From Bryoerythrophyllum caledonicum (taxonomy: Eukaryota > Streptophyta > Bryopsida > Pottiales > Pottiaceae), in the NCBI GenBank assembly GCA_963971425.1, contig OZ020521.1:312501-376500 (forward strand): DNA of 64,000 nt. Direction: 5' to 3'. Every line of letters begins with the position of its first letter. Positions within the stretch are counted from its first letter, which is position 1. The translations under genes and the position numbers were made by a program. Shown in pieces: positions 8,982 through 53,519 of this stretch. The notes below the pieces were generated by a model, which ran no database searches, had not been told where the DNA came from, and worked only from the letters and a program-made list of their open reading frames with translations.

Positions 8982-11900
8982 TTAGTTGTTTTCGATTTTG
9001 CGTTTATGTAGAAGAATGGACATGGCATATTGAATAGCTATGATGTTAATGTTTTTGAAGGTGGTTTTAATTGTTTCAATGGGTATCTTGAAGGTATCTT
9101 CTAGAGTTTTCATAGATGGGATAAAGGTGGTGGCACGGGCGCCAGATGTGATTACAATAAGGGGGTCGACATTCCGTCTGAGGGCGATGATGTCGTCAAT
9201 AAGGGGTTGGTATTTATCTATTTTATTTTGGATTGTTTCCAGGGAAAATCTATCATTGCAATATGTGAATTCAATGAATTGAATGGTGTAGTCTTGGTTG
9301 ATGTTATCGGGCGGTGGGTCATTATATGGTAAACCTTTAACACAAAGGATGTCCGGTTTGAGCCTAGCGTTGCAATGACATCTTTGGGTCATACATGAGC
9401 ATGGGAGTAGCCAAGAGGGGACCGTATTTTCTTGTGGATTGTTATTAAAAGTGCCGGCGTTCATTAGTATAAAACATCTCGATTTATTGTAAGAGGTGAT
9501 TAGTTTTCGGACTTCCCATACCGCTTTATTATGTCTTTTAACAATTAGGGAGTGTATGTGGTGGTTTTGGCATTTGAGTAGAACATGTAGCCATGTGTCG
9601 GAGTCCGTTGAGGGGCATATGGGGCATGTTATGGATGGAAATCTTTCTATTCCGAAGAAGAGCTGTTTGCGGGCGTTTCCCATGTATTGACCGGTACGGA
9701 ATTTAATAAGGCATGTTATTTGTGAATCGGTGATGATGGGGTTTTTCCAGAAATTTGTAGAGAGTTCATTGTCTATGTCATTGTTGTTAGTCCATTTTTC
9801 TATGTAAGGAAAGTTGTTTGTGATTGTGTCAAGATTGTTATGTAGGTCTTGTTTTTTGAGGTATTTACTCAGGAATCTAACCGGGCCTTTATCGGGGGTG
9901 TCTTCTTTGGAGGGCCAATCTTCTTTTTGGAAATAGTAAGGGGTGGCGTGGGCGTGTTCATGTGGGTCTTTGGCATTTTTATGTGATTTTTCTCTTCCTT
10001 CTTTTGCAAGTTTATCTGCTTGTTCATTGCCATCAATATTAGCATGGGCTCGGACTTTGTGGATGGTTGTGATTTGTCCTCGTTTTAGTATCATTTGGAC
10101 CATTGATTCTAGTATGATTTGGTCGGGGTGACTATTATGGAGGGTAGGGTGTGTTATTTGGGTGTTTAGTAAATATAGTGCGTTAATGCAGTCTGTAAAT
10201 ATGTGCACTGGTTCATTGTTGTATTTTGTTGAGACGATTTCTAGTGTTTTGTGAATGGCCATTAGTTTGCTCTAAGGATATTTTGCAGTCCATGTAGTCT
10301 TTTGGCTAGTTTGATTTCTTTCGTAGCGTTGAATATTCCATAACCGGCTTTTTCTCTACGCCAAGATCCCGGGCTAATTTGTTCTGGCGGTTTGAAGGAG
10401 CCATCAATATAGTAGCTGTATGCGGGGTTAAATTTAGGTAGGGTGTTAGTTTGATACTCCGGGAGGGGTGGAGGTGTTAGGGTGCAGTTTAGTGTATTGT
10501 TGTTGTAGTGTAGTTTTGACCATCTTTTGTTTTTGTTGACGGGTGTTTGTATTGGCGTTGGTGGGGCCAATTTTGTGAGTATCCGGTGTATATTTAGAGT
10601 CTTTGCTATGGAGGAGAGTTCTTCTAGTTGTTCTTGTGTGCCTAGAGTTTGATTTTGGTGGTGGATGCATATTATTTGTAGAGTGGATGGTTCAATTCTA
10701 GGCTTTTTGTGATCTAGTGGGATAGTGGGTTCTTTGTATGTTATTGGGTCCGCTTCGAATAGTGCAGTGATGTGTGTGTCAGGAAAGGGGCCCGAGTGTG
10801 GGTTAGGATTTTGATACCAGTTTTTGTCAGGGGTTATGATTAGGGTGGAGGTGTGGTTTGGGTCATGTTTGGCCGCTAGGCGGGCCCAATGTAGTGCTTG
10901 TTGTGTTTCTTCTTCATTCTGGGGGTGGGCCATACCATTTCCTATCCATTTGTAGTCGAAGGCTTTACCTAGTGATCCAAATACTTTATCCCTTTCAAAG
11001 GGTGAGTAGAATTTTTTTAGTTTGGTAGAGCATGTGACCGGGGAAGAAAAGTATGATTGTTCGATGTTAAAGTTTGAGATTAGTGAGTCTAAAATGGGTG
11101 TAGGTATTGTGTATTGTTCGTTTTTGAGGGGGTCATTTTTTGGTATTTGGTATTTATATCTTTGGTAGAGCCAGATTAGTTCGGTTTCAAAGGGTTGGGT
11201 CATTGGTTCGATGTTTGTAGGAGTTTGTAGTTTTGTGTTGTATTGATTCCATATCCATTGGAGTCGAGTGACGGGGATAGTGTGTAAGTGTCTACCATTT
11301 TCTTCGTACATATGTGCTTGATTGTAATCCATTTTAATTGTATTTGAGGTTGCTAGGATATCATTTTCGGGGTTACATTCTAGTGTATGGATTTTTAGGA
11401 GTGGAATAGTTATTGGTGGTGTTACCGATCTCGAGTCTAGGAGTTGTTCGTGGGGATGGTGAGCTAGTATGACATCCGAGTAAATTTTATTTTGAGTTTT
11501 TTGGTAGTATTGTTTTAATTTTTTGATGTTGTGGGTGGAGGTGTTGGTGTCGTGTCGTGGAAAGAGGGCTCTTTGGGGAAGCCATTTGTTATATGTAATA
11601 TCATTGTTTTGCCATTGGCATAGGTATTTTGTGTAGTTATTTTGTATATTATTTGTGTCTGTATGTTGGATGTGTTTATGGTGTATGATGTTATTAATGG
11701 GGTATGTGGTAGGGTTTTTGGAGATGTATGTTGGGGGGCGGGGGTGGTGTGGATGTGGGTTATTAGAGGGGTAGACTGGGGGGATATTTCTTGGAGTGAT
11801 GTTGTTCTTGGAGGTGATGAATGAATCTTGAAGTATATAGGAGTATGGGTGTGTGTTGCAAGAGGTGTGACATGTGACGGGGCATGTTGGATGGCAAAAA

Positions 11901-12984
11901 AGTTGTTTAGCAATGTTTAGAGCACTTTTTAGTAATTTGGATGGAGTGAAGTGGTAGGTTTTGAAATCGTTATTGTTCATGATGTGTGTGCCGTTAGGTA
12001 GGGTAATTTGTTTTAGTTCAAAAATATTTTTTGAGAGGAGTTTTTGTAGGAGTTTTTGAGAGAGATGGGTATTAAGTGTGTTGTGTTTTAATGTTTCTTG
12101 TTGCCATAATGTTTCTAGTGATGTGGGCTTAATGAGGAAGTTTGGGAGTGTACTTTTAAGGTGAATTTTAGCTATGTGTTTTAATAAGAAGAATGTTTGT
12201 GTTATTGGCGATCTTATGCAGTCACTTTTTTTAATTTTGGGTATGTTTTCGGCTCCTCCGTATTGGGCAAGGACATAGTAAGTCAGTCCATTATATATTT
12301 TTCCAAGTCTACCTTTGTCGTTTAAAGCATTTTGTAGTTGTTCTCCAATACATCGGAGATATGCGTTTTTAAGGGAGAAAGCTTCAAGCCCAAATAGGTT
12401 ATGTGGGAGTTGGATAATTGCATTTGACATACATTTTGGTAATCCGCATATGGTTTTTTGTATGGCTATTATTTTTTTATCAAGATTTTTGATAGCAGGC
12501 ATAGAGTATGGTACACCGTAGAAACTGTATGCCACCCCTGGTCGTAGTACGGTTTCTACCATTTTTATTTTTTGTTTCATGGTGGCCGGGCATGTTGTTA
12601 GTTCTTTGCATTGTTTGATGAGTTTAGTGGTTGTAGTACGGATTTGGATTTTCCATTTCAGTGAGGGAACAAGATTTGTACCTAGGTATATGTATGGTTC
12701 ATTTTGGTGTAGTATGGGGATCGGTTGATTGCGGTAATTGATGTTGGAAGTTTGCATTAGGGCTTTGAAGGTGGTGGGGTTTAGTTTGGATTTGTTTGGG
12801 CATCCGGTGGCGGCACATTTTGGGACACCTACGTCCATTCCGGTCCATTTGCAATATCTATCAATTTTATTGAGTTGTATTTGGATAGATTTAATTTTGT
12901 TAGTTATGGCGGCGAGGTCATCTGCGCATGCGGCAGAGTTTATTGTGACTTGTGATGTGCCAAAAGTGTATCCATTATTGCCTC
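8982..12984 (-). pseudogene. LINE copy 1, C-terminal half of ORF2 (RT palm to RNase H)
   Basis: The reading frame begins at the break made by element B. It opens with WLERGNNGYTF, then the reverse-transcriptase motif CADDLAAIT near 12.93 kb, a long Asn/Thr/His/Pro-rich linker, and RNase H. The RNase H residues visible are IDGSF, AELMAIHKTLE, FTDCINA and GNEQADKLA. A Cys/His segment ITCPICPSTDSDTWLHVLLKC and the MGNARKQLFFGIE region follow. One frame break occurs at about 10266-10270. There the intact copy at 32.7 kb reads GCAGAACTAATGG and this copy lacks one G, turning LRAELMAI into LRAN-stop. Otherwise more than 1280 codons are open, so the copy is young. The N-terminal half lies at 28394-31132, beyond element B. 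Confidence 0.9.
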
Positions 12985-12994
12985 GTTCTAACCA
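12985..12994. repeat. Target-site duplication, left copy (element B)
   Basis: GTTCTAACCA is repeated exactly at 28384-28393. Removing B and one copy gives a LINE sequence that reads in frame as LLRWLERGNNGYTF on the - strand. Confidence 0.93.
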
Positions 12995-13004
12995 CAGGAT
13001 TGCT

Positions 13005-13067
13005 AGGGCGTGAGCTATGAGCCATGAGCGATGAGCGGTGAGCCGTGAGCGGTGAGCTATGAGCAGT
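13005..13067. repeat. TGAGCNN heptamer array, left end of B
   Basis: Eight or so 7-bp units (TGAGCTA, TGAGCCA, TGAGCGA, TGAGCGG, TGAGCCG and so on) follow the CTAGGG terminus. An inverted counterpart lies at 28327-28375. Confidence 0.8.
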
Positions 13068-13876
13068 GATAGTCACCAAAAAGTATACTATTTTTTTTAG
13101 TACATAATGGAGAATTGAGGAAAAATAGCAGTATGAAAGTCTATATCCGTGGAAAATTTGAACAATCTATATATGATGTAATGCCTATATCCGTGTAAAT
13201 ATGCTCCGTCGTTAAAATTGTGTTAGTATCTATTCTCATTTTAGTCTTACATTGGTCCCTGTATTTTGACAACTCTTTTTAGTACTATCAATTATAAGGT
13301 GATGTGATATATGATTTTACCATTTCATCCTTGTATTTTTTAATATACTTGTTACTTATTTTTTCTATAATTATGGCCTTGCCTTTTATAATATAAATGA
13401 ATTTGACAAAAAAATTGAATTATACATTATTGTTCATTCTTTCCAAAAAAAAAATTCATTCATGAAATTATCCATTTCTCTCTAACCATTATCATATTTT
13501 AAAACACAATAATTGGTATAAATTTCTCCTGCTTTGACTTACGTCTATATAAATTGTAGTATACCTAGAGTCTATGAAATTTGATACTAATAGAATGCTC
13601 TTTAGAGTTTACAAACTAACCATGTAACTTTTTTTTTATTAAAAATTACGATATTTGCTATTTATCTTTCACAAGCTATGCTAATATCTATTGAAAATAT
13701 AAAGTATAGAAATAAAATGGATAATATAATGAATACACGTTACAAGTTTGAAGTTGAGAAGACAATGAAAACATGAAACTGAGTACTAAAAATGAAAGGA
13801 ATACCGCAATGTAAAAGACACGTACCAAGTGAACAAAGAAAATTTAGAAATGAAGAAGTACATGACCATCGCAAAA
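13068..13876. other. AT-rich left arm of element B, non-coding
   Basis: About 800 bp of AT-rich sequence between the left terminal repeats and the 3' end of the methyltransferase gene. No ORF or repeat recognised. Confidence 0.5.
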
Positions 13877-16800
13877 TTAGAAAGTAGAATATAAACTATC
13901 ATCACTATCCTCGCTAGCTTCAATCGCTTCAATGTCTACAAATTGAACAATATGAGGGTCATAACGACGAGTCTCAGACGATGGACTGGGAGATGGTAAA
14001 GTAGCTAATAATTGAGCTAAATCTTCTATATGCGAAGGAAGTAGAAACGGTTTAGGAGGTGAATTGGTGTCCGCCATCAATCTACAATGAATCAAACATT
14101 AATGTCAATAAAACAACTTTAAAATATTTAAAGAATGCAAGAAAATAATAATTCACAACTTACTTACTCAAGCGGTTTTGTTTTGCAACATGACGAAGAG
14201 GAATGTCATCCTCTTCCAAGTCAATATCCGCTTGCAAAGACACAACAGTCTCTTCCAATGAAGGTGCGTCTCGAAGTGGTGCAAGAATGGCCTCAAAAAT
14301 TGCAGGATCCGCCTCAAAAGCAACCAAATGGCGACTTGAGCGGCGGCAAGCGTGAATCGAGGCACCTAAATTTAAGAGGAGAATATTAATGAAACACTAC
14401 ATCATCTATTTTTTCAATATAAAACGTATCAAAATTACCTGTAGAAGCATATGCATCAAGAATGACACCACCTGGCTTGGTTAGAGCTTGAATAAGAAGT
14501 TGCAATAAAATTGGATCTTTCTCCCGGCCTCCTCTCCAAGGAACAATTCCATTCATGATCTGTGATGCTTCTGATACAAAGTTGAAGAGAACATCATCTT
14601 CGCCAAGGTTGGTAGTGCCATCCAATAGTGGTTGGTCTTGTTGAAAGGAGAACTGAAAACTTGATGGTTGCGAATTATGAATAAGGAGGAGGATGCGAAA
14701 ACGTTGTGTCTACCCAAAAACAATAGTATTGTTAAAATAAATAAGTGAGAAAATAACATAATAAAAAGAGTAGAGATAGGGAAACACACCGAGATTGACT
14801 CGTTTGTTGAAGATGTCAATTGGAGCTCATTGATGCCCTACCAATCTTTGAGGATTTTGAAGTCATAAGTCTTTGCATATGTACGTACGTCTGCTCGAAT
14901 GGTCATTGACTCAGGCATAAAGATAAGTAAAAATGCATGAAATTGCAAGTAGTAATGAGCGAATTCGAAGATGGCTTCCAATTCAGACACATTATACGTA
15001 TTCCACTGTGGAATGTCATTCGTCAGAGATGAAATCTTCGGTACCGGTAAACCTTCGGGAATGTCAATCGTCAGAGATGAAATCTTTGGTACCGGTAAAC
15101 CTTCGGGAATGTCAATAATGATGAGATCAAATCCATCATGAGGGCAAGATGCAGAACGCACCTGAGTTCCTCGACCCTTTCCAACCTACAAATTTAAAAT
15201 ATAACAAATATTAATTACCCACTCCAAAAAATTATCACTCTCAAGAAGGCAATAAACCACTCCAAAAATATTTAACAAATTAATTATTAGTTATAGCAAT
15301 GTAAATGATTATGAATAAAGCTACATACCGTTGAAACAAAATCATGCATCTTCTTCATCAGAGGATGATCGCTCCCAGATTCCATCAATGTGAAAATTGA
15401 AGTATTTTCAACAAGAATTTTTGTTGAAGAGACCATGGAGGAAGAAGCAATACACGTAGCATTGACATTTTTCTTGGCCTGAATATTACTCTGATAAACT
15501 TGGATGGCATTGGCGGCCTGAAAAGGAATTGATGAATTTACCAAATTCAATACATTAGGTGGGGCAATCACCCCACTGTCATCCACAGGAATAATAGTCG
15601 CAGTTGAAGCCTGAGTTACCTTTGAAGCTTCAGATGCCTTGGGTGGCTTGGATGACTTTGTTGCCTTTATAGCCTTTGTTGTTGTTTTTGTTGTTGAATC
15701 TGTTGCCTTTGTTGTCGTTGTTGCTTTTCTCTTCCCTTTCTGAGCTGTTACTAGTGCCGCAGCAACTTCGGGGGCATCCAATACATCATCTGCATCGTCT
15801 TCAGGTACAATCGAAGAGACCTTGGCTTTTAATTCTACCTTCTCTTCTTCCTCCTCTGCAGGACAAAACGCAGGTGGACAATCCAAGTACCATGCTCCAT
15901 TCTGTAAATGAGCAAGACTCCACTTTTGAATCTGCATTGGAGTGTAGATACAAAGCGGAGATGCCTTGTCTGTCCAAGAGGATAAAAACGGTGGTAAAGA
16001 TTGTGGAAGTATGGCCTTCTTGGCCACCAACTCCCTACGTAGATATCTATACAAAAAATCAAATAAAATATTAGTTCTTATGAAATGACATAACGTGAAA
16101 TCAAATTCATAAGTTGATAATATTACCTGAATAAGACATGCTTAATAGCTAGAATACCAGTCGCCATATCAACGAGTTTAGATGATTTTGTGAAGGGGGT
16201 CTCAGCTTTAAAGAAAGAAATGAAAGCCTTCTCCCAAACTGCAATCCTCCAACGCTCCACGTATTCACCAATCCTCATAATTCCAGGTGATGCCTCCCAA
16301 TTAATGGGACCAAGATCGGGCGACATATCCTCAAACTTATGCACCACAACATCCTCCAACTAATAATACACAGTAACATATATTGTATTTAGGCAATTTG
16401 ATATCATGTTGTTATTAGAGATGTAAGAAAAACCAAATATATTGTACTCAAAACAGTTTATATAAATGGAACTAACCTCAACCCAAAATGTGGCACGAAT
16501 AAGCCATAGATCAAAGACTGTTTCCTTAACAGCACCAGTTGGAAACCGTAGAGACTCTCAAGTCATCTTCGATGAATTCCACCATTTGAGCCAACGTCCT
16601 TTGAACTCAGCATCAACCATTGCAGTAGCTACCTTTTGTAATTTTTCGAGGGTCATATCCGGTTTTGGAACATTGTTCCAATGTCTTGTGATCTAATAAA
16701 AACAAATACATCACCAAAATAAGATATCAATTCAAAAATAAATACAAGTTGGAAAATATGGATTGAATAGAACTCAATACCTCGTTAAGGAAATTTGATC

Positions 16801-18044
16801 CATTTTTAGGATCTGCCACTGCCAATAACTTTTCAAACTCATGACTACGAATACTTTTGATAAATGCCTTTGCAGCCTTGTCCATTGCTTTCCAAACCCC
16901 TTTAGCAGTTTGCTCCTCAATAGACGTGTTTGCTTTATATTCTTGGCAAGCCTCATCAGATGCAGAAGCAATCTCTCGCTGCAAAGGAAATGATTGTTAA
17001 AAAAAAAATCTAGAAAATGTAATATGAATCAATAAATAGTTGTGCAAATGTACTCACCCAATAGAGGAAAGATATAAACACATTGATGGTCAATGTGTAC
17101 CAAGTGCGAGAATTCCTTTTGAATTTCTCACAAGTCTTGAAATCCGCGTCCCGAATAAGAGTCTTGAAATCAGCCAGAGGTAAAACTCCGAAATGTTGGA
17201 TTCGGTGCAGCTTGTACACTAAATTAGTTTTAACATGATCAAGCTCCGTCGACCTGCAAATAAAGGTAAATAACTAGTTAATTATACTTTCAAATCATGC
17301 AATGAAAGTATAAGAAACAATGCACATCATTAAATTGAATATGAGTTCACTCACCTATTCACATCATTCATAGCATTGAGAAGGGGACCCAAAGCCCCTC
17401 GAGCATCAATACAAATGCATTCAACAGGCCGATAGAAATTGCATTCATAACGGTCTCCCGAATAATTCTTCTCAATATATCTCCACCACGAAGTGAACCG
17501 ATGATTGCCCTCCCAAATGAAAAGCATTTTACCATGAAGGCATGAAAGTTCAGGATCGTTTTTTACTTCTTCATCAAATCGCTCACCGGCATCTTTCCAA
17601 TGGGCACTCCAAGTGGATGAGACCGTTGAAGAGGCTTCATGAAATTAGCCAATCTCATTATAAATGGATACATATAGAGGACGGTCTCCAGAACGGTAGC
17701 CATTCACAAATTCTGCCTCAAGTTTCTTCACATCTTGATCAAGAATTGGTCTTACCAGTGGAAGAGGAATTAGCCGACATAATGGGATCAACATCCTAGC
17801 GTGGGACGGATGAACATGAAGGCTTGAAAGGAAGCCAAACGAATCGGGCTTTCGTTCTTTTCTGACCTGAATCTCAACGGCATCCAAGTCTACCGCCTCC
17901 TCAGGAAATGTTGCCTCTGCAATGTTTGTAATATCTTCCATGTCCTCATGAGTCACATTAGCCTCCTCCGTTGCACTTGATGGCGCTGTAACATCCTCTA
18001 TGTCCTCCGATGGAATTGGACTTATACTTGGTTGCCTCTCCTGA
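13877..18044 (-). pseudogene. ParB-like domain plus beta-class DNA methyltransferase, ten exons
   Basis: Exons on -: 17355-18044, 17058-17253, 16781-16978, 16477-16692, 16127-16359, 15329-16046, 14790-15185, 14439-14709, about 14167-14365 and 13877-14081. Eight introns are GT-AG; the last donor seems to have lost a G. Exon 1 has an acidic N-terminus, then LIPLPLVRPILDQDVKKLEA, a PLYVSIYN segment and FIWEGNHRF. This resembles a ParB domain (basic substrate-contact site, then GHHR-like motif). A Lys/Thr-rich linker follows in exon 6. Exon 7 has FDLIIIDIPEG (DPPY-like, motif IV). Exons 8-9 join as ILDAYASTGAS (FxGxG-like, motif I) then RHLVAFEADP. The order motif IV before motif I is that of beta-class N4/N6 DNA methyltransferases. 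In-frame stops: TAA 17645-17647, TGA 16558-16560, TAG 14838-14840. The true N-terminus may lie upstream of 18044. Domain calls are by motif only. Confidence 0.72.
15012..15115 (-). repeat. 48-bp tandem duplication inside methyltransferase motif IV
   Basis: A 48-bp unit is repeated twice with two differences, so the protein reads DIPEGLPVPKISSLT twice, followed by a third partial start NDIPQWN. The duplication keeps the frame. It falls at the predicted catalytic DPPY-like site. Confidence 0.85.
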
Positions 18045-18528
18045 TAGTACATAAAATTAAAAACCATTAGAATATTAGACTGGACCGCGACACTTAAAGT
18101 GAGTCTGAAAGTCCATCATGCAGATATTAGTTGCCCTCTCTAGACCTCGGTAGTAAGGACGAGAGTGATCAATTGAGGTGAAGAGGGAGTCGGGATAGTG
18201 CGGTCGGCACAGTAAGAGAGAGTCGAAGTAAGAGAGAGAGTGAAAGTGCAAGTTGGAGGAAGGTTCCTCGGGAAGAACGCCGTAAACATAAACTGACGAC
18301 TCATCCAAGATCGTGGGAGAGGCACCGAGACGGTACGCCCTAAACAACTATCTCGGCACCGAGACAGTACGCACAGGCTCTTATCGCCTGTGCTCACATC
18401 GCACAGGCTCCTATCGTCTAATGCGCCTGGTCAACTATCTCGGCACCGAGACGGTACGCATGTGCTCAATATTCATTGTGCACTTTATCCATGTATGGAC
18501 TTTATCGATCGTTGCTTTGGGTGCTGAC
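18045..18528. promoter_or_regulatory. Upstream region of the methyltransferase gene with palindromes
   Basis: Lies between the first recognised exon and the 25-bp repeats. TCTCGGCACCGAGA occurs at 18351 and 18438, each followed by ACGGTACGC or ACAGTACGC. A 5' exon may be hidden here, but I could not define it. The promoter role is inferred from position only. Confidence 0.35.
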
Positions 18529-18713
18529 CAGTGTCGTATGCTCCCCCACCACCCAGTGTCGTACGCTCCCCCACCACCCAGTGTCGTATGCTCCCCCACC
18601 ACCCACTGTCGTACGCTCCCCCACCACCCATTGTCGTACGCTCCCCCACCACCCAGTGTCGTATGCTCCCCCACCACCCACTGTCGTACGCTCCCCCACC
18701 ACCCATTGTCATC
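18529..18713. repeat. 25-bp minisatellite (GTCGTAYGCTCCCCCACCACC)
   Basis: Seven full units and a partial one, starting at 18529, 18554, 18579, 18604, 18629, 18654, 18679 and 18704. They differ mainly at two positions. Repetitive translations in all frames are artefacts of the repeat. Confidence 0.9.
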
Positions 18714-19409
18714 GTAACCCAGGCCAACCGAACAACGCACACCCATCCGAGGGACTCATGTCCCACCACGTGGTGCTCCCCAAAATGTTCCCGCGACACT
18801 CAACCGTCTCCACCGTCACCCCCAAAAAACAATCATTCTCCCGGTCAGCTGCTTCGAGGAGCAGGATATAAGCCACACTTTCAGGTGTGTGCAATGTGAT
18901 GCTACACCGGAGTAGCATCTAAAACAGATGTTGGCGAGCCGAGTCGGGAGTTTGTGCACGTATTAGCTCTAGAAGTACTACGGTTATCAGAGTAGCAAGG
19001 TACCATCAAAGAAACTATAACTGATTTAATGAGCCATTCGCAGTTTCACAGTACAAAAGAGTATATACTTAAACATGCATGGCTTAATCTTTGAGACAAG
19101 CATATGACTACTGGCAGGATCAATCATGTAGCTATTCCTTTCCAAAGTACGGCCTCCCATATATTCCTTCACTCCTTTCATGCCTTTGGCAACCAACATA
19201 TCGAGTCCCCCACCAGTCTATCCCGACTTGCAATATCCCGACTCGGTTCACGCGCCTGGTCTTCAGTATGGGGCATGTAATCGACCTACATGAAAGTGTC
19301 GTGAACCTGGACAGACGCCTTGAACCAGATCCGTTGACTACAGAAAGTTGACGACCTCACGAGCCTCGGGACCTCGTTTTCAAGGGTCTTGGCACCGAGT
19401 CAATTCTTA

Positions 19410-20070
19410 CTAAACGCTCTTGATCATGCGCACCAATACCTGAACGCTCTTATCATGCGCACCGATACCTGAACGCTCTTGATCATCCGCACCGATACCT
19501 CTTGATCATGCGCCGGAGCCCGGTACCTGAAAACGATTAGATCAGGTAGTCTTACTTGTGCGGATTAATCTCTCGCAGCATCGCCAGCGCTGCAAAGTAG
19601 CAGGATTTACGCCTTGAACCTGAAGTGCCAGAAGGCGCTTGAACCTGGCCTTTGTGAAGGCGACTCGATTCCAAATTGACGACCCCAAAAAGCCGATGAT
19701 TTGAACCAAGTTTACGAGCCTCGGCACCTCATTAACAAGGGTCTCGGCACCGAGATACTTCTAAAGTGAGACTCAAGGCACAACTAAAAACTTGAGCCAA
19801 ACTGTAGATCAGGCGAAGATGGGTCTCGTGAATACTGATGTGGCTCGTGAACATTGTAGACCAGATGCGTGGACACTGTAGATCACGCGCGTGGAGACTG
19901 ATTGGTTCGTGAACACTATTGATCAGGCGCGTGAACGCTGTTGATCAGGCGCGCGAACACTATTCATCATGTGGGTGAACACTGTAGATTCTCCGCGTGA
20001 ACACTCAAGATCAGGCGCGACTCGCGAGAATACTCTTGAGGCTCGTGAACACTGTAGACCATTCGCCTCG
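19410..20070. repeat. Two families of about 30-bp repeats in element B centre
   Basis: 19410-19530 has about four copies of GATCATGCGCACCGATACCTGAACGCTCTT-like units. 19800-20070 has repeated GTGAACACTGTAGATCAGGCGCG-like units. Single CTCGGCACCGAG palindromes lie between and after them (19744, 20129). No coding sequence seen. Confidence 0.65.
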
Positions 20071-20179
20071 CTCTCATGGCCCGCAGCTCTGAAGTTCACG
20101 CAAACAGGCACCTCGCTCACAAGTGTCTCGGCACCGAGACAGTTCTATAGTGCGACTCACACAACCAATCTAATCAATC

Positions 20180-21187
20180 GTTGACCTGTTTTCAATGACC
20201 TGTCGACATCTGGTGCGGCTCAACCTGGACAACCTAGTGCGGCTCTTGGGATATTGCTACAGCAAGAATTGTGTTCGAGTTCTAATTTACAAGCTCTAAA
20301 GGTGTATGAGTTCTGCTGCACTGTACAAGCCCCTGGTGCACGAGTTCTAACATACAAGCTCTAATGGTGTGCGAGAACATGAATGGTGTACAAGCCCGTG
20401 GTGTACGAGTTCTCCAGCAAACTATAGTCCTAATGATCCAGTAAATTGGTAGCAGCACAACAAACAAGTATAGAAATCAACACCTCTTGTTAATACCGAA
20501 TCTCGCAAGAAAGAAGTCACAAACTGTAAGAAGATCGCAAGAACCTCAGATTTCCATTCCTCAACAAAAAAACACCTAGTACAGCTGAACGAGATAGTAC
20601 AGGACTGTCCTGTTGAACCTAGTCACGATTGCAGAAGTCCGCAACTACCATTCACGATTGACAGTCCCGGATCTGCCCTCGTGCAACGTGTGTGGTTCAC
20701 CAAGATCCTGATCTTGATGAGGTTGAACGAGAATATGACTTGTTGGACGAGATCTGTTAAGTTGGATGACAATTGGTATATTCTCAGGAATAATTCGGAG
20801 ATACTCTAGACGGCAATGCCTAGTCGATTTTCATTGTGGAAGGAAATCACCATGGCGGTATAATTCAAATATGCGTCTTGTACCGCCGTATTAGACCACA
20901 AACTCTCCATTTTATTCTAAACACATATCATCGTATACTACGGTATTTGTAATGTCGGTTTATGTATAGCTGAATTTTCCAAATGTAATTTGCCCCAAGG
21001 TTTGTTTTAAGTTACAAGAGTTGAATATGTGATACCCATGTATTACCCTGGTGACTTCCGTGCAATGCCTAGGTAATTTCCCATGTGGACATAACATACT
21101 CTAAGGAATAATATATAATTTGTCATGTGGTTCCCAAAATTGACCATTGCACTTGGAATTCACAATTATTTCCACAAAAAATTAGTG
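20180..21187. other. Central region of element B, non-coding
   Basis: Weak repeats of CGAGTTCTAACATACAAGCTCTAA type at 20270-20420. The rest is unique, AT-rich and without a believable ORF. Confidence 0.45.
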
Positions 21188-22261
21188 TCGCGGCACCGAG
21201 ACACCTCATATTTAGCTCTCTAAATTTGAAATCATCAAAAGTGACAACAAACGACTAGGACCTACCACAAAATATTTCATAATTTTAAAGTGATCTCGGC
21301 ACCGAGATACCTCATATTGAGCTCAAAGAATTTGAAAATATCAAAAGTGAGAGCAAATGACTAGGACCTACCACAAAATATTTCATAATTTTAAAGTGAT
21401 CTCGGCACTGAGATACCTCATATTGAGCTCAAAGAATTTGGAAATATCAAAAGTGAGAGCAAATGACTAGGACCTACCACAAAATATTTCATAATTTTAA
21501 AGTGATCTCGGCACCGAGATACCTCATATTGAGCTCAAAGAATTTGGAAATATCAAAAGTGAGAGCAAATGACTAGGACCTACCACAAAATATTTCATAA
21601 TTTTAAAGTGATCTCGGCACCGAGATACCTCATATTGAGCTCAAAGAATTTGAAAATATCAAAAGTGAGAGCAAATGACTAGGACCTACCACAAAATATT
21701 TCATAATTATAAAGTGATCTCGGCACCGAGATACCTCATATTGAGCTCAAAGAATTTGGAAATATCAAAAGTGAGAGCAAATGACTAGGACCTACCACAA
21801 AATATTTCATAATTTTAAAGTGATCTCGGCACCGAGATACCTCATATTGAGCTCAAAGAATTTGGAAATATCAAAAGTGAGAGCAAATGACTAGGACCTA
21901 CCACAAAATATTTCATAATTATAAAGTGATCTCGGCACCGAGATACCTCATATTGAGCTCAAAGAATTTGGAAATATCAAAAGTGAGAGCAAATGACTAG
22001 GACCTACCACAAAATATTTCATAATTATAAAGTGATCTCGGCACCGAGATACCTCATATTGAGCTCAAAGAATTTGAAAATATCAAAAGAGACAACAAAT
22101 GACTAGGACCTACCACAAAATATTTCATAATTATAAAGTGATCTCGGCACCGAGATACCTCAAATTAAGCATTTAGAATATGAAATCATCAAGATTGACA
22201 ACAAAGGTATTGGACCTACCACAAAATAATTCATAGAATTTAGTTGATCTCGGCACCGAGA
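21188..22261. repeat. 106-bp satellite, ten units, each with a CTCGGCACCGAG palindrome
   Basis: The palindrome recurs at exactly 106-bp spacing: 21188, 21294, 21400, 21506, 21612, 21718, 21824, 21930, 22036, 22142 and 22248. Middle units are almost identical, while the outer units are diverged, as expected from unequal exchange. Further isolated palindromes follow at 22374 and about 22613. The array lies between the divergent genes of element B. Confidence 0.95.
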
Positions 22262-22631
22262 CACCTTGTAATTTTAGGAACGTGCCTAAAATCTTTATTG
22301 TCTTTCCAAGTCACCCATGGTTCGTTAGGGGTCAAAATTTAATGTTCCTAAAATGTTTTCATGAGAAAGAGTGTCTCGGCACCGAGACCCTCAATGTCAA
22401 CATCTTAAATTTCCAGAGATTGCAAACACGTAGAGTTCAAACATCAAATCTATTAACATCCAAGGAGAAAACAACATGAGCCGCAAGTATAAGAAGGCAA
22501 TCGAGAACAATTGACTGAGGGACCATTACCAACTTATCCAAACATCCAAAATAGGAAACAACCACGCAAATTTTGAAGACAATCTCTGAATACAATTTCT
22601 TCCAAAATGATTGTCTGGGCACCGAGACCTA

Positions 22632-23222
22632 TTAAATCCAAGCAATTGTGGTCATAAACAAATCTTGAACCAGCATGGTTAGGTCATGAAAAGGCACCTC
22701 AAATCCTTCAGCAACCCTGTCTTCAGCCATTGCCATTGACGCCGCTCCACTAATTGAGCTCTGCTACAATATAACAAAATGGTATTGTTGCGCATGTCAG
22801 TCCTAGAATTCCATCAAATTCAAATGATCAAACTAATCCATTCAATATAGTAAAAGAGAAGTTTTTGAAGTATATCTTATATCGATGCAACGCCCGAGAA
22901 TGTTTGCCGCAGGATTGTCTTTTTCTTCTTCAAAGTGAGACACCTCCACGTCATTCTCAGCATTGTCTTCAAGTATCTGTTCTCCAAAATTGAGCATTTT
23001 AACAATTGCAGTGCATGAAGAACTCGTTCTAGATCTAGTTTTTCTAGATTGCATCCGGGCCCTCTTCAAAGTTTTTCTATCTGAAAAAAATATCCGAGGC
23101 TTCTTCTTCTTCTTCTTCACCTTAGACCTAATAGGCGACCCTAAAGACTTCTCTTCTTCTAGCATCTGAAAAAATCTTGTGTACATGCTACGATCAACAA
23201 CACTCTGAACAAACCGATCCAT
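22632..23222 (-). CDS. Small two-exon basic protein gene in element B
   Basis: Exon 1 starts at MDRFVQSVVDRSMYTRFF (23222) and includes a strongly basic patch KVKKKKKKPR and KTLKRARMQSRKTRSRTS, suggesting nuclear localisation. An acidic tail DNAENDVEVSHFEEEKDN follows. An exon 2 (22760-22632) is supported by a TTGTAGCAG acceptor and an open frame ending in MTTIAWI-stop; the exon 1 donor near 22890 is unclear. I recognise no family. It could be an accessory transposition protein, but nothing in the sequence shows that. Confidence 0.45.
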
Positions 23223-23394
23223 TTGCAGCAGTTTGCAAGAACAAAATATACCACACTACAAGGAAGGCCTTCGTCAATGTGTTTAGATATCGCGACATAT
23301 AGTTAGCGTTCAACTCTAATTTAGACAATGAATTTGAAACTACAGAGTTCAATTTTATTTCTATTTCATTTTGTATAAGATTAGATTAGTTTCC

Positions 23395-23885
23395 AATCTA
23401 TTTTCTTCAATCTAGTGACGGTGCCTAATTTATTGCTTTGCAATGACGTCCTACAGTTCATAGTACAGTCTTCATCTAACTTCTATTTCATTAATAGTAC
23501 AATCTTCACCACAACAAGCGTCATCTATTTTCTTCTCCTCAGTGAGGGTGCCTAAATTATTGCTCTGTAATGGCGTCCTGCAGTTTATAGTACAGTCTTC
23601 ACCAAACTTCTATTTCATTTACAGTACAATCTTCACCAAAACAAGCGACATCTATTTTCTTCTACTCAGTGACGATGCCCTATTTATTGCTCTGCAATGG
23701 CATCCTACAATTTATAGTATAGTCTTCACCAAAGTTCTATTTCATTCATAGTACAATCTTTGCCAAAACAAGTGTACTCTATTTTCTTGATCTCAGTGAC
23801 GGTGCCTAATTTTTCGCTCTGCAATGGCGTCATGTAGCTTATAGTGCAGTCTTCACCAAAGTTGCCAAACTTCTATTTCACAATT
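23395..23885. repeat. About 127-bp tandem repeat upstream of the transposase gene
   Basis: Four imperfect units begin with GTGACGGTGCCTAATTTATTG-like sequence near 23415, 23543, 23669 and 23798. Each contains CAATGGCGTCCTRCAG and TATAGTACAGTCTTCACC. The array ends about 230 bp before the predicted start codon and could carry the promoter. That is inference. Confidence 0.75.
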
Positions 23886-24112
23886 GCTTCCGTCGTCTAC
23901 ACATCATGAAATATCCGTCAGAAGATTCTTTAGCAGTCAAGCTACATTGGTTTTCTTGATTCCTACTTCCACCAAGTTCGATAACCTAGTAACCCCCCTA
24001 CTTTCAAATTTGTCCTCATTTCATAATTTACAGTATGATTTGGTGCCATATCGCTCTTCTCCTTCTCTTGTAGGATCATTTGATTTCTTTAAACCTCTAC
24101 TCTTAGCGCAAC

Positions 24113-27100
24113 ATGAGAATGGCAACATTGAGAGTAGAGGGGCATCCTGTCCCAATCCGAATACCATTAGGATCTGATGGATTTGCTAGAGTCACTTCTC
24201 CACTTCTAGCTATTCGTTTTGGCTTCAATCTAGATACTATCCATGTAGAGGAGGAGGTCTTAGATGCTGCTAGGATTTTATGCTACACCATGCTTCAGCT
24301 CAGTTCAATTGTAGATGAGGGCAAGGCCTGGTTTTTGAGGGAGGGATCATACAAAGTGATAGGTGTGAGTGAATTGCAAATGCAAGCTTCCACCGAGATA
24401 CACACACCAGGAAAATCCAACACTTCTACTGTGAAAGTTGAGAAGCAATCACCAACAAAGAGTGGACCGGATATTCATCACGCTTGGGGAGGGCATAGCA
24501 CACCTCCCACAATTCATTTGGATGATAGCGACGACGACTGCCCTTTGGTGGACATCACTGCGTGTACTCCTCCAACCTTCAGCAAAGCGGCGCCCTCCCC
24601 ATCAAGTCCTCTGGTGCGAGCGGGTACACCATCTTCCATGTCCCGTCCGCCCTTGCACCCTTCTACACAAGGGACTTCTTCTTCCATGTCCCGGCCACCG
24701 CTGCATCTATTCTCCCAAGAACAAACAAGCGTTGTTGCATGTTTAAAGAGACTGGCCTCTAGGCCGGGATCTAAGAACGTACTGAAGAAAATTGACTATG
24801 CTGTCGTACCTCACAAAAAAGTTGAGTTCTTGCCCTCTACTTTTAACGGTGATGTCATATTTGAGTTGCCTCCTGCTTCGTTAAATGCTAGTTCTTCCAA
24901 TGCTCGAAACATGGAAGGTATGGACAAACGGTACGACGGTCATTGCTGGTGTCTAACAAAGACATCGAATATTTCAAATGACATGGGTCTTACCTTCCGT
25001 AGATCTTCATGTGGTGGACACTTGCGTTGTGAGAATCTAGAGTGATTATTTGAAGAGGCTCAATGGTGAAGATCCGTACAATGAGAAGGAGTAGGAGGGG
25101 ACCACATCGATGCCTTTTGTGCCCGGAAGACCAATACCAAAGACCTCGTCGTTGGTATGTAAGGTATGTAAGACTTCACCTAGTGTACTTGCTATGTGTC
25201 AGGCCGTCATTAACTACGTGCAAGGACCTCCTGAGATGACCCGTGCTTGTGTGCACATGGGCATTCATGATCATCCTGTAGCTTTTGGAATTTGCCGTGA
25301 GTCAGAGGCAAAGATTAATAGTCTATTGGGCGAGCATGTGGAGCGCAATCCTACAGGAACGAATTCAACAATTGCCATGTCAGCAAGCAAGAAATTTCTA
25401 GCAGAGTATCTTCTTCGACCCCAAGAATCAGAGATGACTGACTATGGAAGACATGAAGGGCGTGATGGAGAAGTATACTAATTTGGCATCTCCAAATGTC
25501 AAAAATACCATTTCATCCTTCAAGCAAGTTGGACGTACAAGCGCAATGGACGGTATCCGCACAATGAGAGGTTGTACGACTTGGCCATTTGTCCAGCGCA
25601 ACATGTTTCCGGGTCAAGGAGGCGACAAGGACAAAATTTTTGTCTTTAAGATGTGCAAGATTGGCCTTGGTTCAGGAGTTGATCTAGTTTTACGCATGCA
25701 GCCTGGTGGAGACCTTCAAGACACATGGATCATGTTTGATCATGTAAAGCGGGTCAAGAATTGGACCACCACGGCTTGCCATGTGTACGATTCTCCGTAC
25801 TGCAGAGTTATGACTATTGCAGTTTGCGACATGCAATCTGAAGACTCAGAAGCCCAATGCATCATGTGGAGGAGCATCAACGAAGTTATGGGGAGGCACG
25901 GGGTCTAGCACGTCAACTTCAAAGGTTTCATGGCGGATAGCGGAGGAGCAAACTGGAATGCTGTACGGACGGTCTATGGTTCAAGTAATCCCCAAGAGGT
26001 TATGGTAGATCGAGAACGCACATGTCTACTTCATTGGACAACATCCATGAACCGCCACACGGACAAGTATATCAAGAGCGAGTTCCAAGACCAGCACCGT
26101 CTTCTGTGCAATCATATAAGGATGCCAAGAATTTGGCAGACTCTGAGATTCGTTACCTTGCCATTAGAGCTTGGTGGCAATCTTGTGGTGCCCAAAATGA
26201 TGAGGCCCTTAGACAACTTGAGCAGTGGCTTGCCTTTTGGCATTACCGCTATCACCAATGGGGAGCATCTATGGAATTGGTATGAGTTCTATCATATTTG
26301 ATGAATATTTCATTTCAATATACGGTCCAAACAACCATATAAGTGACGTTGTGATTTGTGTTACAGAATCTCACAGATGAAGAGATGGCCGAAATGCCAT
26401 CCTGTAATTTGGCGGAGACTGTCCACAATCGTTGGCTTCAACAATCAGGGAATAGAGGAAATGACCTATACGATGCAACGGTGGACGACTTTCTTCGTGC
26501 GTTTATGCAATGCACGAACTATTATCACTTTTTAAAAGGAGGGCGATCAGGGACCGGCCCTTCCAAGCATGAGTTGCGAATGAGGCTTGCCCAAAGGACC
26601 GGTAAATACGAGAAGGTGATTGAAGCCATGGAGAGCATCCCGGAGGCCAAGGAGTGGTGCACACGCACTCCTCACTTTGAAGGAGAAGAGGTGTTTGGCT
26701 CCAGCAAACGAAAGCTTGATGAACCATTTGGTTTAGACCTTGATAGTCATCGCCCTGATAAAATAAATTACTCCCGTCCGAAGGCCTCTACAAGGTCCAA
26801 GAAGGGACGTCAAGACATTTCTTCTGCAGCGACAGCGTTGCCTCCCACCTCTCAATCTTCATCTTTGGGTGATGTGAAGCTTGTGACACCACCGTAGTCT
26901 CCATCTAAAGTACCTACGGGAGTGAAGCATGTTACAAGTGCTCAACAATCTAAGTGTGACATACATAAATGGCATATTGCAAGGCTCCCAAAGACTTCTG
27001 GTAAGTGTTGTCATACTAAACAGGCCAGGACGGGTATGACGTGCACCGAGAAGATTGTGCGTTTGGGGAAAGACACTCCTGCTCCGACATACACCGGGCT

Positions 27101-27809
27101 CCTCCATGTTCGAAGACTCTTGAAGGACCAAGTTACCGAGTTCTTCCATTGCCCGGATGACATTGAAAGGTGCGTAAAGGGAACTAAGCAGAAGTGGGTG
27201 AATCACCGTCCGCTAGTTCCAGATGTATGGCCTGTGATGAAGGGCACCAACCTTACCAAGGCTGAGATTCTCAGGCTAGAAGAGGCAGGATTTCAACTAG
27301 AAGAGCGACGGGAAGTGTCACCGAGGCGGCTTTTTGGAGATGCTGTCAATCCTACTACGCACGCAGCATCCGTGCCTACACCTGCAGATGCTGACTCTTA
27401 TCCAACATTGCGTAAAGGCCGCCGTATCCGTCGTCAGGCAAAGGTTTCCGTGAAGCAAAAAAATCGATGGGCATCTGCGGACAACCTCAATGTCCGCATC
27501 AACTCCATCTCAATGCTTCTCTACTCCGCCCTCGGATGCATCATTGTACTACAGTAAAAAAAGGGGCAGAAGACGAGTGAATATCGCCTTACTATTGGCC
27601 CTCTCCCAAATTGCACTTGCGGCGACTTCAAAGACATGGTGGTTCAATCCAAGAAGAGAGGTGCTTGGTACCATTGCAAGCATATCTACTATATTTTTCG
27701 AGTGGTATGCAAGCTCAATTGCGAGGACGATGCTTTTGTCCATGTTGCTACCTTAAGCTTCAAGGAGATCAAGAAAGTGCTACAGAGTGGTGTCTTGAAG
27801 CTTCTATGA
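24113..27809 (+). pseudogene. Mutator-like (MULE) transposase with SWIM zinc finger
   Basis: The chosen start opens MRMATLRVEG, followed by a Ser/Pro-rich linker and a Cys-rich segment (HCWCLTKTSN, SCGGHLRCENLE, then CKVCKTSPSVLAMC). The catalytic core has FDHVKRVKNW, MADSGGANWNAV and RTCLLHW, matching the D...D...CxxH layout of MULE transposases. An 87-bp intron (26280-26366, GT-AG, phase 0) precedes MPSCNLAETVHNRWLQQSG. The C-terminus has a SWIM finger, CTCGDF then WYHCKHIYYIF. The frame is broken by stops at 25092-25094 (TAG), 25906-25908 (TAG), 26895-26897 (TAG) and 27555-27557 (TAA). There are also frameshifts near 25043, 25442 and 26115. The 10-bp duplication around element B agrees with the superfamily. 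Confidence 0.82.
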
Positions 27810-28326
27810 TGTGTGGCTTCGAATGTAGGGACATTGCTATATCTCGCTATATTTATAGCCCAGCTTGTATGGATAGTTGCTAAATGTTGTTAGTATATGG
27901 ATAATGTACCTTTTGTTTGTTATAAAATAGAAAGATATTTTTATTCTTATACTGTAGTTCATTTCGTTGTCATATCTGCATTTACTTCACTTGTGTCTCC
28001 ATCACTGTTACAATACTTCACCAACTTAATTATCTACCATCGATTTATATAGTGTATACACAAAATAAGAGTATCGTATGTGTAAAAATCTTCTCTAGGT
28101 CCTAAACTCGTAGTGCCTACAATCTCTCCAATACACCTTCAACTTTGCAAAATAGGAAGATCCAACACTACTTGAATTTGAATGCTATTGGACCTGAAAT
28201 ATTGTAGTCTATTCTAATTGCACGGTTATAGGTACTAAAAATTTACTTAAAATATCCTTAACCAAAATTTTTAGTACATGCATAACATTATTTTTAGAAA
28301 ACAAAACCTATTTTTGGTAAATCAGA
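27810..28326. other. Right arm of element B, non-coding
   Basis: AT-rich sequence between the transposase stop and the right heptamer array. No gene seen. Confidence 0.5.
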
Positions 28327-28375
28327 GCTCACCGCTCATGAAATCTCCGCTCATGGCTCATGGCTCACACCCTAG
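28327..28375. repeat. TGAGCNN heptamer array, right end of B (inverted)
   Basis: On the - strand: TGAGCCA twice, TGAGCGG, a short spacer, TGAGCGG and TGAGCTC, then ACCAAAAA. The left end has CACCAAAAA at the matching place. Confidence 0.8.
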
Positions 28376-28383
28376 CGTCGTTG

Positions 28384-28393
28384 GTTCTAACCA
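28384..28393. repeat. Target-site duplication, right copy (element B)
   Basis: Second exact copy of GTTCTAACCA, followed directly by the LINE reverse-transcriptase coding sequence on the - strand. Confidence 0.93.
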
Positions 28394-31132
28394 TCTAAGT
28401 AGTGGTTCTAAGAATATAATGACAGGTATGGACTAAGGGTGTCCCCTTGTATAGTTCTTCTTTGAATGGGTATAGGTTTTGTTTTCCCGAAGTGTTCGCC
28501 GATGTAGCAAGTGGACGATTGAGAGTAAATGTTTCCAACAAGTGTGGTTGCATCTTTTGGGTAACCAAGGTCCATCATTATTGCTAGTAGTCGGGCATGG
28601 TCTATTGAGCCAAATGCGTTTTTAAAGTCTACGTATAGAATGTATATATCTTGGTTTGTAAATCTTGCATCTTCTAGTGCGGCTATTATAGTTTGTATTT
28701 GACTAAGCGGTGCTTCTTTCTGCTCTAAATCCTTCTTGGCTATCATGTAGGATTTTGAATTTTTCACCATATGAGGATAGTATGGAGGTGAATGTACTAG
28801 TGAAGAGTTTATATATTGTGTTAGCTAGTGCGATAGGTCTGTGGTTGGGTAATATAGATGGATCACCTTTTTTGTATAGTAGAATTGTTGTACTTGATTT
28901 CCATGACGTTGGTATTTGTTTTTGTTTATAACAGTGAGAGAAAAATAGGAATAATAATTTATGGAATCTTGGGGGCATGTTTTTAAGTATTGAGTTTGGT
29001 ATGTGGTCTGGGCCTGGGGCTTTGTTGTTACCAAGATTCCTCAGACATGTGTCATAGGTGGCTATGTTAAAGTATTTGTGTAGTGGGATTTCTGGTTCGC
29101 CTCGTTTGTCAAGGGTAAATCCATCAAGGTCATGCCATGGGTATTGGCGTACTGCACAGGTGCATTCAATTGAGTGTTGTGGTTGGTAATTACATGTTGG
29201 TATTGTCGGTCTATTGCTTTTTGTTTGTTGGTTGAATATTTCATTCGCGATGTCTTCTGGGCTAGTTAGGATATTGTTGTGTTGATCCATGATACAATCC
29301 ATTGGTGGGGATTCAAGGTTTTTAAAGACTTTCTTGCTAATTTTTTTTGGGCTAATTTCATATAGTTGTCTGTATTTTGAGATGGCTTTTTTGATGTTAT
29401 CTTTGGCGTATTTTGAGGTTATTTTTCTGGCTTGTATATTGGCACTTTTTGCAATTAGTGCAATATCTTTTATCCATGTATCGTGAGGCAGGTCTGGGGG
29501 TGGCGGGGTAGGGATTTGGATGTTTTGTAGAGTTAGTAGTTCAGTGTATATGGGGTGGTTACGCCATTGAGGGTTGTTTTTTACTATTCTAATGGTTTTC
29601 CTTATAACATGGTATGTAGTTAGGTGTTGTTTCCAAGTTTTAGAGAGTTTACGAGGGAGATATCCACCTTGTTGAGAGGTTCTGTTTGTCATTTTAGGTA
29701 TCGGGTGGGCTTTACAAGTTTGTTTGAATATATCAGAGATTTTATTGATGAGTTTGTCTAGGGTGTGGCATGCTTCTAGCCATTGTGTTTGTGATAGTTG
29801 ACTGTTGTTTTCAAGAATGTCTGTGAGAGAATCTATTTGTATGGAGTTTTCTTCAAAGAATTTTGTGTTGAAATTTTCTATATTTTCTTTTGGTATAGGG
29901 CTGAGTATGCGTATTGTGTCATTATTTGGTATTGTGGGAGTTCTATTAATTAATATGTTGTCTGGGATGTGCAATTGTATGGGTGAGTGATCAGAGTTTA
30001 GAATAACATCTTTGTTTGTGGTAGAGGTGTATTGCGTATTGTTATTTGTATTTATGTAGAATCCATCTATTAGGCTCCAATCGCTATAATTATAACCACC
30101 TTGTCTGGAGAATTGTGTGTCGGTTTGGATGTAACTGAGGTTTAGGTTTTCTGTGAAGCGGCGCCATTGGTAATCATTATTTTGAGGGGGGGTGTTATGA
30201 TTTCCATTGTGGCAACCGATTAGTGCTATGTCTCTATTGAAGTCGCCACATAGTAGGTATGTGTGATTGGGGTTATTATTAATTTGAAATGTAATAGTGT
30301 TTTGTATGTCTATGATATATCTAGTATCTTCGGGGTGGGATGGCATGTACATGTGGAAGATTAACCATGGTTGTAGTGGGTGGTTAGTGATTTTGATTAT
30401 TTGAAGGTACGGTGATATATGCATTGGGGTGAGAATTTTGTTGATGTTGCCCGGGAAGGCATAGTTTTTGTGTATTAATGTAAGGAGGCCACCACGGCCC
30501 GGTGTGTATGGTCTCCGTTGTTGGATGCATCTTGTAAGTGCATGTGTATTGTTAAATATTAGTTTATAGTTTTGGAATATATTTTGTATATATTTTGTAG
30601 ATTTTGTGGCGGATAGTTTTGTTTCTTGTATGACTATGAAGGATGGTGGCGTGGCTGTGTGCGTGACCAAAGTTTGTAAGCTAGGTAGGGCAGTGTTTAG
30701 AGAGGAGGCATTCCATGTGATTATGTATGTGTTTTCATGATTTAGACTGATATTTTGATTTTGTGGGGGGATGTAGGACGGTGGTGGTGGTGGACAGGTG
30801 TATTCTGGTATAGGATCTAGGCATTTTTGTAGTTCGTTGATGAGATTGTTAGGGAGGTAAGGGAATTTTAGTTTTATTGTTTCATTTGAGGGAGGTATGA
30901 TTTGATTGTGTAGAAAGTCATATATGTTTTTATGTATTGTGTTATCATTGTTTATAATATTTTGGTTGTCTTCAAGAAACTTTATGTATGGGTGCATAGT
31001 GTAGATGTATCTTTCTGGTGGGTTTTGTAGGTTTAGTAGAGTTTGTAGAAGTGTATTGGTCCATGTGGTTGTGTTTGAGTCTTGTGGATTTATGAGATGA
31101 TTGCATTCATCTAGTATGTATAGATGGGTGGT
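28394..31132 (-). pseudogene. LINE copy 1, N-terminal half of ORF2 (endonuclease and RT fingers/palm)
   Basis: The - strand frame has an apurinic-type endonuclease: ITWNASSLN, FIVIQETKLS, GRGGLLTLI, LLCGDFNRD, SLIDGFY and NSDHSPIQL, in the order of the exonuclease-endonuclease-phosphatase family. Reverse transcriptase follows with NNKAPGPDHIPN, RPIALANTIYKLF, SQEGFRAERSTA, YVDFKNAFGSIDH (motif A) and IQGDTLSPYL (motif B). Frameshifts lie near 28718 and 28425. The sequence ends at the element B insertion and continues in frame at 12984. Its 5' end meets the 3' tail of LINE copy 2 at about 31133, so the true ORF start is missing. Confidence 0.9.
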
Positions 31133-39580: not shown

Positions 39581-39599
39581 TTTAGGGTTAATTAGGTTG

Positions 39600-53462: not shown

Positions 53463-53519
53463 TACAATGCACACATTACCAAAGTAAGCATCATAATGTA
53501 CAAAGCATACCAATATACA

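Follow-up and report, generated by a model that had tools for sequence, protein, structure and literature searches.

A conserved ParB-box-like and methyltransferase-related gene of MULE-type transposons in moss lies beside family-specific palindromes

We analyzed a 64,000-nucleotide stretch of contig OZ020521.1 from the moss Bryoerythrophyllum caledonicum (positions 312,501 to 376,500, forward strand), hereafter the window, whose first letter is position 1. A transposon resembling a Mutator-like element (MULE) in this window carries a gene that joins a ParB-box-like domain to a domain related to beta-class DNA methyltransferases. A lineage of MULE-type transposons in moss has conserved this gene as an accessory; it is inherited together with the transposase, in divergent orientation, and conserved palindromes with family-specific arms lie beside it. 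We favor, with some reserve, the reading that the encoded accessory protein binds the palindromes of its own element and so quite possibly lets the element recognize its own copies.

The Gene in the Window

The gene and its diagnostic exons are located as follows.

13878–18052, minus strand: ParB-box-like/methyltransferase gene, a broken copy with three in-frame stops
17355–18052, minus strand: first exon with the ParB-box-like domain, VRPILDQDVKKLEAEF ... FIWEGNHRF
14790–15185, minus strand: motif IV exon, DLIIIDIPEG, which aligns to DPPY in both CcrM and the phage EJ-1 methylase
14439–14709, minus strand: exon whose end is motif I, VILDAYASTG; Pfam PF01555 match
14168–14365, minus strand: exon following motif I, ASIHACRRSSRHLVAFEADP; Pfam PF01555 match

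A preliminary description of this DNA had quoted peptides from the minus strand between 13877 and 18044, and inspection of the sequence and its open reading frames (ORFs) located them there. The spliced protein comprises about 1,100 residues, with a long middle region separating the N-terminal ParB-box-like domain from the C-terminal methyltransferase-related domain. Nine exons, whose GT/AG intron borders were read by eye, can be joined in one frame of 1041 codons including the three stops, and no in-frame join to these nine was achieved for the tenth and last exon (14081–13878, 204 bp). The stops are a TAA at 17645, a TGA inside the exon 16477–16692, and a TAG at 14838. Additionally, the motif IV exon contains a 48-bp tandem duplication (15010–15105). 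The three stops and this duplication mark the window copy as a pseudogene.

Palindromes Beside the Gene

The commonest 12-mers of the window element are parts of a single palindrome, TCTCGGCACCGAGA, which is concentrated upstream of the gene.

18351–22387, no strand: 14 copies of the palindrome TCTCGGCACCGAGA, 0.3–4.3 kb upstream of the gene
21184–22266, plus strand: 106-bp tandem array of 10.2 copies, containing 9 of the 14 palindromes
2518–2531: CCTCGGTACCGAGG, outside the element, the sole perfect core palindrome in the control DNA

Comparison with related elements revealed a common 14-bp core, NNTCKK-NN-MMGANN, with perfect 6-bp arms that are specific to each family. The 19.15-kb family e1 carries GTTCTG-NN-CAGAAC, with 7 perfect sites in the copy read, or 14 if one arm may be GTTCGG or CCGAAC, scattered across its non-coding DNA. 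The arms were [G/C]TTCGG-NN-CCGAA[C/G] in stretch L066 (3 sites), CTTCGT-NN-ACGAAG in L067 (9 sites), CGTCGG-NN-CCGACG in both L068 and L070 (5 sites each), and CCTCGT-AT-ACGAGG in L069 (7 sites). L067 also contains a further palindrome, AACATTCAAATGTT, in four occurrences.

With tandem-array repeats counted, 60 core palindromes were present in all eight stretches (71.7 kb, six families), compared with one in nine control stretches totaling 129,984 bp, or four when one arm mismatch was allowed. Dinucleotide shuffles of the first six stretches gave a mean of 0 to 0.1 core sites and at most 2, and five stretches of gene body (L031–L034 and L036) contained none. A prediction of such palindromes, written in advance, came true in both further stretches, L069 and L070, which were two of the three planned and were taken at about half length, covering the part nearest the gene. 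L070 and L068 are 77–82% identical; one of 60 arm positions distinguishes them, whereas outside the arms they differ at 283 of 1206.

L066 and L067 share 1,839 bp of their transposase side at 97.3% identity, and they belong to different families of the ParB-box-like/methyltransferase gene, their motif IV exons being 94% and 57% identical to that of L033. Gene modules thus seem to have been exchanged between such elements. Their palindromes differ as well, by one base in the arms, which is a hint that the site follows the gene and not the transposase.

A 25-bp tandem repeat of 7.3 copies (18528–18710) lies between the start of the window gene and the palindrome array.

The Methyltransferase-Related Domain

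The window copy matched PF01555 (N6_N4_Mtase) with an E-value of 1e-5 and 26 bits, just below the cut-off of 26.7, and the eight e1 loci exceeded the cut-off with 28.4–30.6 bits. In the PDB, a six-row profile matched DpnA in the motif I region (E 5.4e-7) and CcrM over profile positions 15–227 of 239 (E 6.4e-5), and profile comparison with the ParB-methylase of phage EJ-1 gave E-values of 9.9e-6 and, over 206 columns, 1.5e-6. Motif IV lies N-terminal to motif I, which is the beta order. These observations support the beta-class amino-methyltransferase domain proposed in the preliminary description.

Alignments A2, A3, and A5 carried about 26 surplus residues in their e1 row, as did the e1 protein in the Pfam search, and the PDB, homology, and profile-comparison searches used these versions. 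The surplus came from an ORF supposed to be an exon, an assignment that was rejected: the end of exon 7 lies further upstream, and the exon that follows opens with AVLLVKTG, as the relatives P0119 and P0123 suggest. Alignment A9 is the corrected e1 alignment.

The proposed motif IV, IIIDIPEG, aligns on the DPPY of both CcrM and EJ-1; its residues are those of a variant and not the canonical ones. DIPE was found in 19 of 20 sampled exons and DISE in one, a sample biased by the DIPE query with which 19 of the motif IV exons had been fetched, and e1 has DQPF. Among the relatives read, the motif is mostly D-[I/L/V]-P-[E/D], the exceptions being DQPF in Ceratodon P0135, NIPE in P0095, and DILE in P0141. 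In motif I, STG or ATG replaces GxG in six of eight rows; the motif ends mostly in ASTG or AATG in the relatives, and in GVG in P0077, P0080, P0087, P0088, and P0089. The preliminary description had named stop-free paralogues lacking the motif residues as evidence against its reading; the stop-free paralogues keep both motifs, in a non-canonical form.

The motif IV exon is under purifying selection. Of 190 pairs, 70 had a dS of 0.1 to 1.5, and their nonsynonymous-to-synonymous ratios (omega) had a median of 0.14 and a maximum of 0.57; the median indicates that the domain has been kept by selection in its unusual form. Within the young e1 family, pN/pS was 0.47 overall, 0.2 in exons 4–5, and 0.85 in exon 6, on few changes. 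Continued methyl transfer by the protein is doubtful because motif IV reads DIPE or DQPF, and the idea of a working writer of N4-methylcytosine (4mC) or N6-methyladenine (6mA) is weakened accordingly.

The ParB-Box-Like Domain

Most of 64 sequences keep a PLCR...VR...D...F..GY segment and a (D/E)GNHR...AW box. Searches with Pfam, PHROGs, NCBIfam, and PDB profiles and against ten phage ParB proteins gave no significant ParB match; in the PDB profile searches no ParB chain appeared, and the best match of the deep profile was ribosomal eL24 (0.012). When compared by hhalign with the ten phage ParB proteins, trimmed profiles aligned over the box alone, with a score of 16.6. Weak Pfam hits among the 64 sequences were to DUF1015 in four (best 0.028), BC10 in one (0.0016), and Phage_tube_C in three (0.0035), and the latter two are likely due to chance. 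Of the ParB-like domain that had been proposed, the (D/E)GNHR...A box of the first exon stands, and a ParB fold is a possibility. We call the domain ParB-box-like, a label resting on this box.

Spread of the Gene and Co-Inheritance with the Transposase

The genome (437 Mb) was searched with tblastn, and the same exons were found at unlinked loci. The searches scored at least 150 of 1718 candidate places with the ParB exon, at least 150 of 1694 with the motif IV exon, and at least 151 of 2014 with the transposase, all ranked by similarity to the window copy; some scored places contain stops. The identity of the scored ParB and motif IV exon places reaches down to 35–52%. Among the 150 listed ParB-exon places, 25 (24 genes, two places being pieces of one) lie within 25 kb of one of the 150 listed transposase matches, where about 2.6 are expected. 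All 25 are divergent from the transposase, with match starts 3.6–9.8 kb apart, and 11 of the 15 closest window-family places listed are paired in this way. Since the lists are ranked by similarity to the window copy, the share of MULEs without the gene cannot be read from them.

A relative of the window element on another contig, d1 (L029 and L030), matches it in blocks of 88–97% identity (pieces up to 100 bp were left out) and contains no counterpart of window positions 25230–27984, which is most of the transposase. Five of its ParB-box-like/methyltransferase exons are stop-free ORFs.

A Pfam search of the genome yielded eight loci, all of the e1 family. Four copies compared end to end, with pieces up to 400 bp left out, were 96.7–99.2% identical over the remaining pieces, and their target duplications, read by eye, measured 10, 11, 9, and 10 bp. 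The family follows the plan of the window element, with the transposase and the ParB-box-like/methyltransferase gene on opposite strands; it also has a third gene, RING-like as read by eye. In L010 and its neighbors, this third gene lies at element positions 17519–18775 on the minus strand and encodes 419 residues with RING-like cysteines, again read by eye; its Pfam matches are weak. Positions 11001–21000 of the window had no blastn match at E 1e-5 in the eight e1 loci, whereas the proteins are 34–41% identical over the ParB exon, about 23% over the middle region, and 46–48% around motif I. As to the intact copies that the preliminary description had proposed to look for, L010, L011, and L015 show neither stops nor indels across the six exon sets tested. 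One or two stops occur in each of L009, L012, L014, and L016; L013 has a 1-bp deletion, and its first exons are absent from the stretch fetched.

Homology searches with alignments found 86 and 59 relatives, of which 30 sequences were read, and a search with the whole window protein found none. The sole organism named among the listed relatives is Ceratodon purpureus, a moss (P0085 and P0135). The genome itself has 58 light-harvesting matches, one protein among which is closest, after the polyprotein chain 9vfj, to chains 8htu and 7xqp, both moss photosystem structures. A viral origin was considered and rejected, as alignments of the domains, run twice against viral contigs, returned no relative.

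The Host Transposon and Other Features of the Window

The boundaries of the element, its transposase, and the interrupted long interspersed nuclear element (LINE) are as follows.

12995–28383, no strand: MULE-like transposon of 15,389 bp, defined by terminal alignment; the d1 relative matches in blocks
12985–12994, plus strand: left copy of the target-site duplication, GTTCTAACCA
28384–28393, plus strand: right copy of the target-site duplication, GTTCTAACCA
13010–13069, plus strand: left terminal array of TGAGC heptads, with five more TGAGC at the right end (28327–28367)
24107–27557, plus strand: MULE-like transposase, divergent from the ParB-box-like/methyltransferase gene (ORFs 24107–25045, 25438–25908, 26355–26897, and 26898–27557)
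28703–31240, minus strand: upstream part of a LINE ORF broken by the element
10262–13072, minus strand: downstream part of the LINE ORF

That the gene is carried by a MULE, as had been suggested, is borne out by structure: a perfect 10-bp target duplication, termini that match at 29 of 36 bases as short and imperfect inverted repeats, TGAGC heptads at both ends, and a transposase of its own. The outer 500 bp hold 13 of the 51 TGAGC of the element, compared with 1.7 expected. Target duplications of 9–11 bp were present in all five copies read (the window copy and four of e1). When the flanks are joined without the element, the LINE coding region runs in frame across the junction, and a stop is present further upstream in the LINE. 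The DDE residues of the transposase were read by eye; it had no MULE match in Pfam, and the homologous e1 transposase gave a weak SWIM match of 15.2 bits (cut-off 19.6).

Immediately upstream of the window transposase lies a 127-bp tandem repeat of 3.7 copies (23396–23860). Outside the element, positions 35600–41797 contain inverted matches to the DNA adjoining d1, including a RING-like ORF on the plus strand (40987–42150); the matches point to a further mobile element within these 64,000 nucleotides, and d1 seemingly adjoins a piece of its relative. Positions 52036–53528 contain ORFs with a masked N stretch followed by a hAT-like dimerization region, and positions 59238–62153 contain pol ORFs of the Ty3/gypsy retrotransposon type, both identified by eye.

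Possible Roles of the Protein and Its Sites

ParB proteins bind palindromic sites. Most likely, the moss protein would bind, probably in dimeric form, the 14-bp palindromes found upstream of the gene in its own element, and this binding would let the element recognize its own copies. The act performed at the site might be repression of the divergent promoters, marking, or a gathering of copies, so that recognition could result in regulation of the element's promoters or in marking of its DNA. The protein is linked to the palindromes by their position, by their family-specific arms, and by the contrast between L066 and L067; binding, dimerization, and the effect at the site are what we infer as most likely. 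With the palindromes in hand, self-recognition is more plausible than it was before. In a bolder version, which we consider possible but speculative, moss MULEs would contain a recognition pair akin to parS/ParB, in which each family encodes a protein with sites of its own, the two diverge in step, and the copies are read or marked with the help of a derived DxPE methyltransferase domain.

Several points weigh against binding of its own palindromes by the protein. The copy in the window is a broken one, the canonical (D/N/S)PP(Y/F/W) residues are missing from motif IV, and the motif I exon of e1 looks neutral (pN/pS about 1.1, on few changes). PF02195 had no match at E 1 among the 64 members of the N-terminal domain, the ParB profile comparison had a probability of 1.4%, and one column shuffle in 60 equaled its score (shuffle mean 11.3). 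The core NNTCKK was fixed after six of the eight stretches had been viewed, and the count of 60 is inflated by tandem arrays. The window element and d1 are kin, as are L068 and L070, and because of the latter kinship L069 is the only independent held-out family. The arms of L066 and L067 are a single base apart (CTTCGG and CTTCGT). Finally, palindromes of any kind exceed the shuffle level outside the element too (26 vs 12.8).

Alternatively, the palindromes might have nothing to do with the protein and serve as sites for a host factor or the transposase, or as promoter or hairpin elements. Most palindromes fall within the intergenic DNA between the divergent genes, which has to contain the promoters, and some e1 sites are close to the transposase exons and the third gene. 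However, the place where the transposase acts holds terminal TGAGC arrays and not palindromes, a common host factor would not favor arm differences between families, and the gene families of L066 and L067 are different, and their arms one base apart, despite the shared transposase side. We regard such unrelated sites as somewhat unlikely. The protein might instead be a catalytically active, self-methylating enzyme, whose ParB-like part finds the palindromes and whose methyltransferase part adds 4mC or 6mA to the element's DNA, for protection from silencing or as a label for transposition. Homology to DpnA, CcrM, and the phage ParB-methylase and the conservation of the motif exons across families agree with such an enzyme; the same reading was proposed for Ectocarpus in the available excerpts of PMC12477816, and 4mC is present in Marchantia sperm according to those of PMC8566409. 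The replacements in motif IV (DIPE, DISE, and DQPF, as sampled above) and in motif I (STG or ATG) speak against it, and we consider it unlikely. A fragment of a host or bacterial gene, caught by one transposon and of no function to it (a Pack-MULE), could account for the pseudogene in the window with its three stops. Such a recent capture, without conservation across elements, was rejected and is very improbable, since at least 150 places were scored for each of two exons down to low identity, the divergent order is conserved, selection between families is purifying, and relatives occur in Ceratodon and other public contigs.

Under the preferred reading, in which the protein binds the palindromes of its own element, every family has a specific candidate for its target in these sites, which makes the proposal of transposons that recognize and mark their own DNA testable in moss. 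If the reading is correct, a system of self-recognition has been carried through land plants by mobile DNA, and a methyltransferase domain has been conserved with an unusual catalytic motif.

Comparison with Known Systems

Genes of this kind have been described before. According to the available excerpts of PMC12477816, transposon-borne ParB-methyltransferase genes occur in Ectocarpus and in the green and red algae cited there, and no target site is named for the algal genes in these excerpts. In its MULE-like element, the moss gene fits the suggestion that a ParB-methyltransferase rides on a eukaryotic transposon, with a first part that is ParB-box-like, and such a fusion was already in print. 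Among the papers listed by literature searches, which covered few subscription papers and did not address palindromic sites, none described such a gene from a moss or from a MULE.

Among eukaryotic amino-methyltransferases, MpDN4MT1a/b of Marchantia are 4mC enzymes essential for sperm (PMC8566409, in excerpt), and we liken these bryophyte 4mC methyltransferases to the moss gene by their description. Bdelloid N4CMT, as excerpted from PMC8885841, is a bacterial-type amino-methyltransferase in a eukaryote that has been linked to transposon silencing; it is fused to a chromodomain, unlike the ParB-box-like fusion of the moss protein. The moss profile matched PDB chains labeled DNA cytosine-N4 methyltransferase, which are known to us by label alone, weakly (E 0.43 and 0.47).

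DpnA and CcrM resemble the moss protein in the profile match and in having motif IV before motif I. Unlike it, they have a canonical DPPY and an FxGxG-type loop, and to our knowledge they contain no ParB-like part. ORF37 of Streptococcus phage EJ-1 also has an N-terminal ParB domain (box-like in the moss protein) and a C-terminal methyltransferase of beta order, but it comprises 421 residues, with a canonical DPPY, no long middle region, and no introns. The closest description is that of the accessory gene of Ectocarpus Sola1-1_Ec32, a 21.5-kb DNA transposon, which encodes a 1104-residue protein with ParB-like and N4C/N6A methyltransferase parts on the strand opposite the transposase (PMC12477816, in excerpt). 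The moss gene is similar in its length of about 1,100 residues, its combination of domains, and its strand, whereas the moss element is MULE-like with duplications of 9–11 bp. This likeness is one of description, and not of motif or site; on the moss side stand the DIPE or DQPF of motif IV and the family-specific palindromes. Hence, the kind of gene is known, the host group and the type of transposon seem to be new, motif IV is altered, and the candidate target site appears to be an addition to the described systems.

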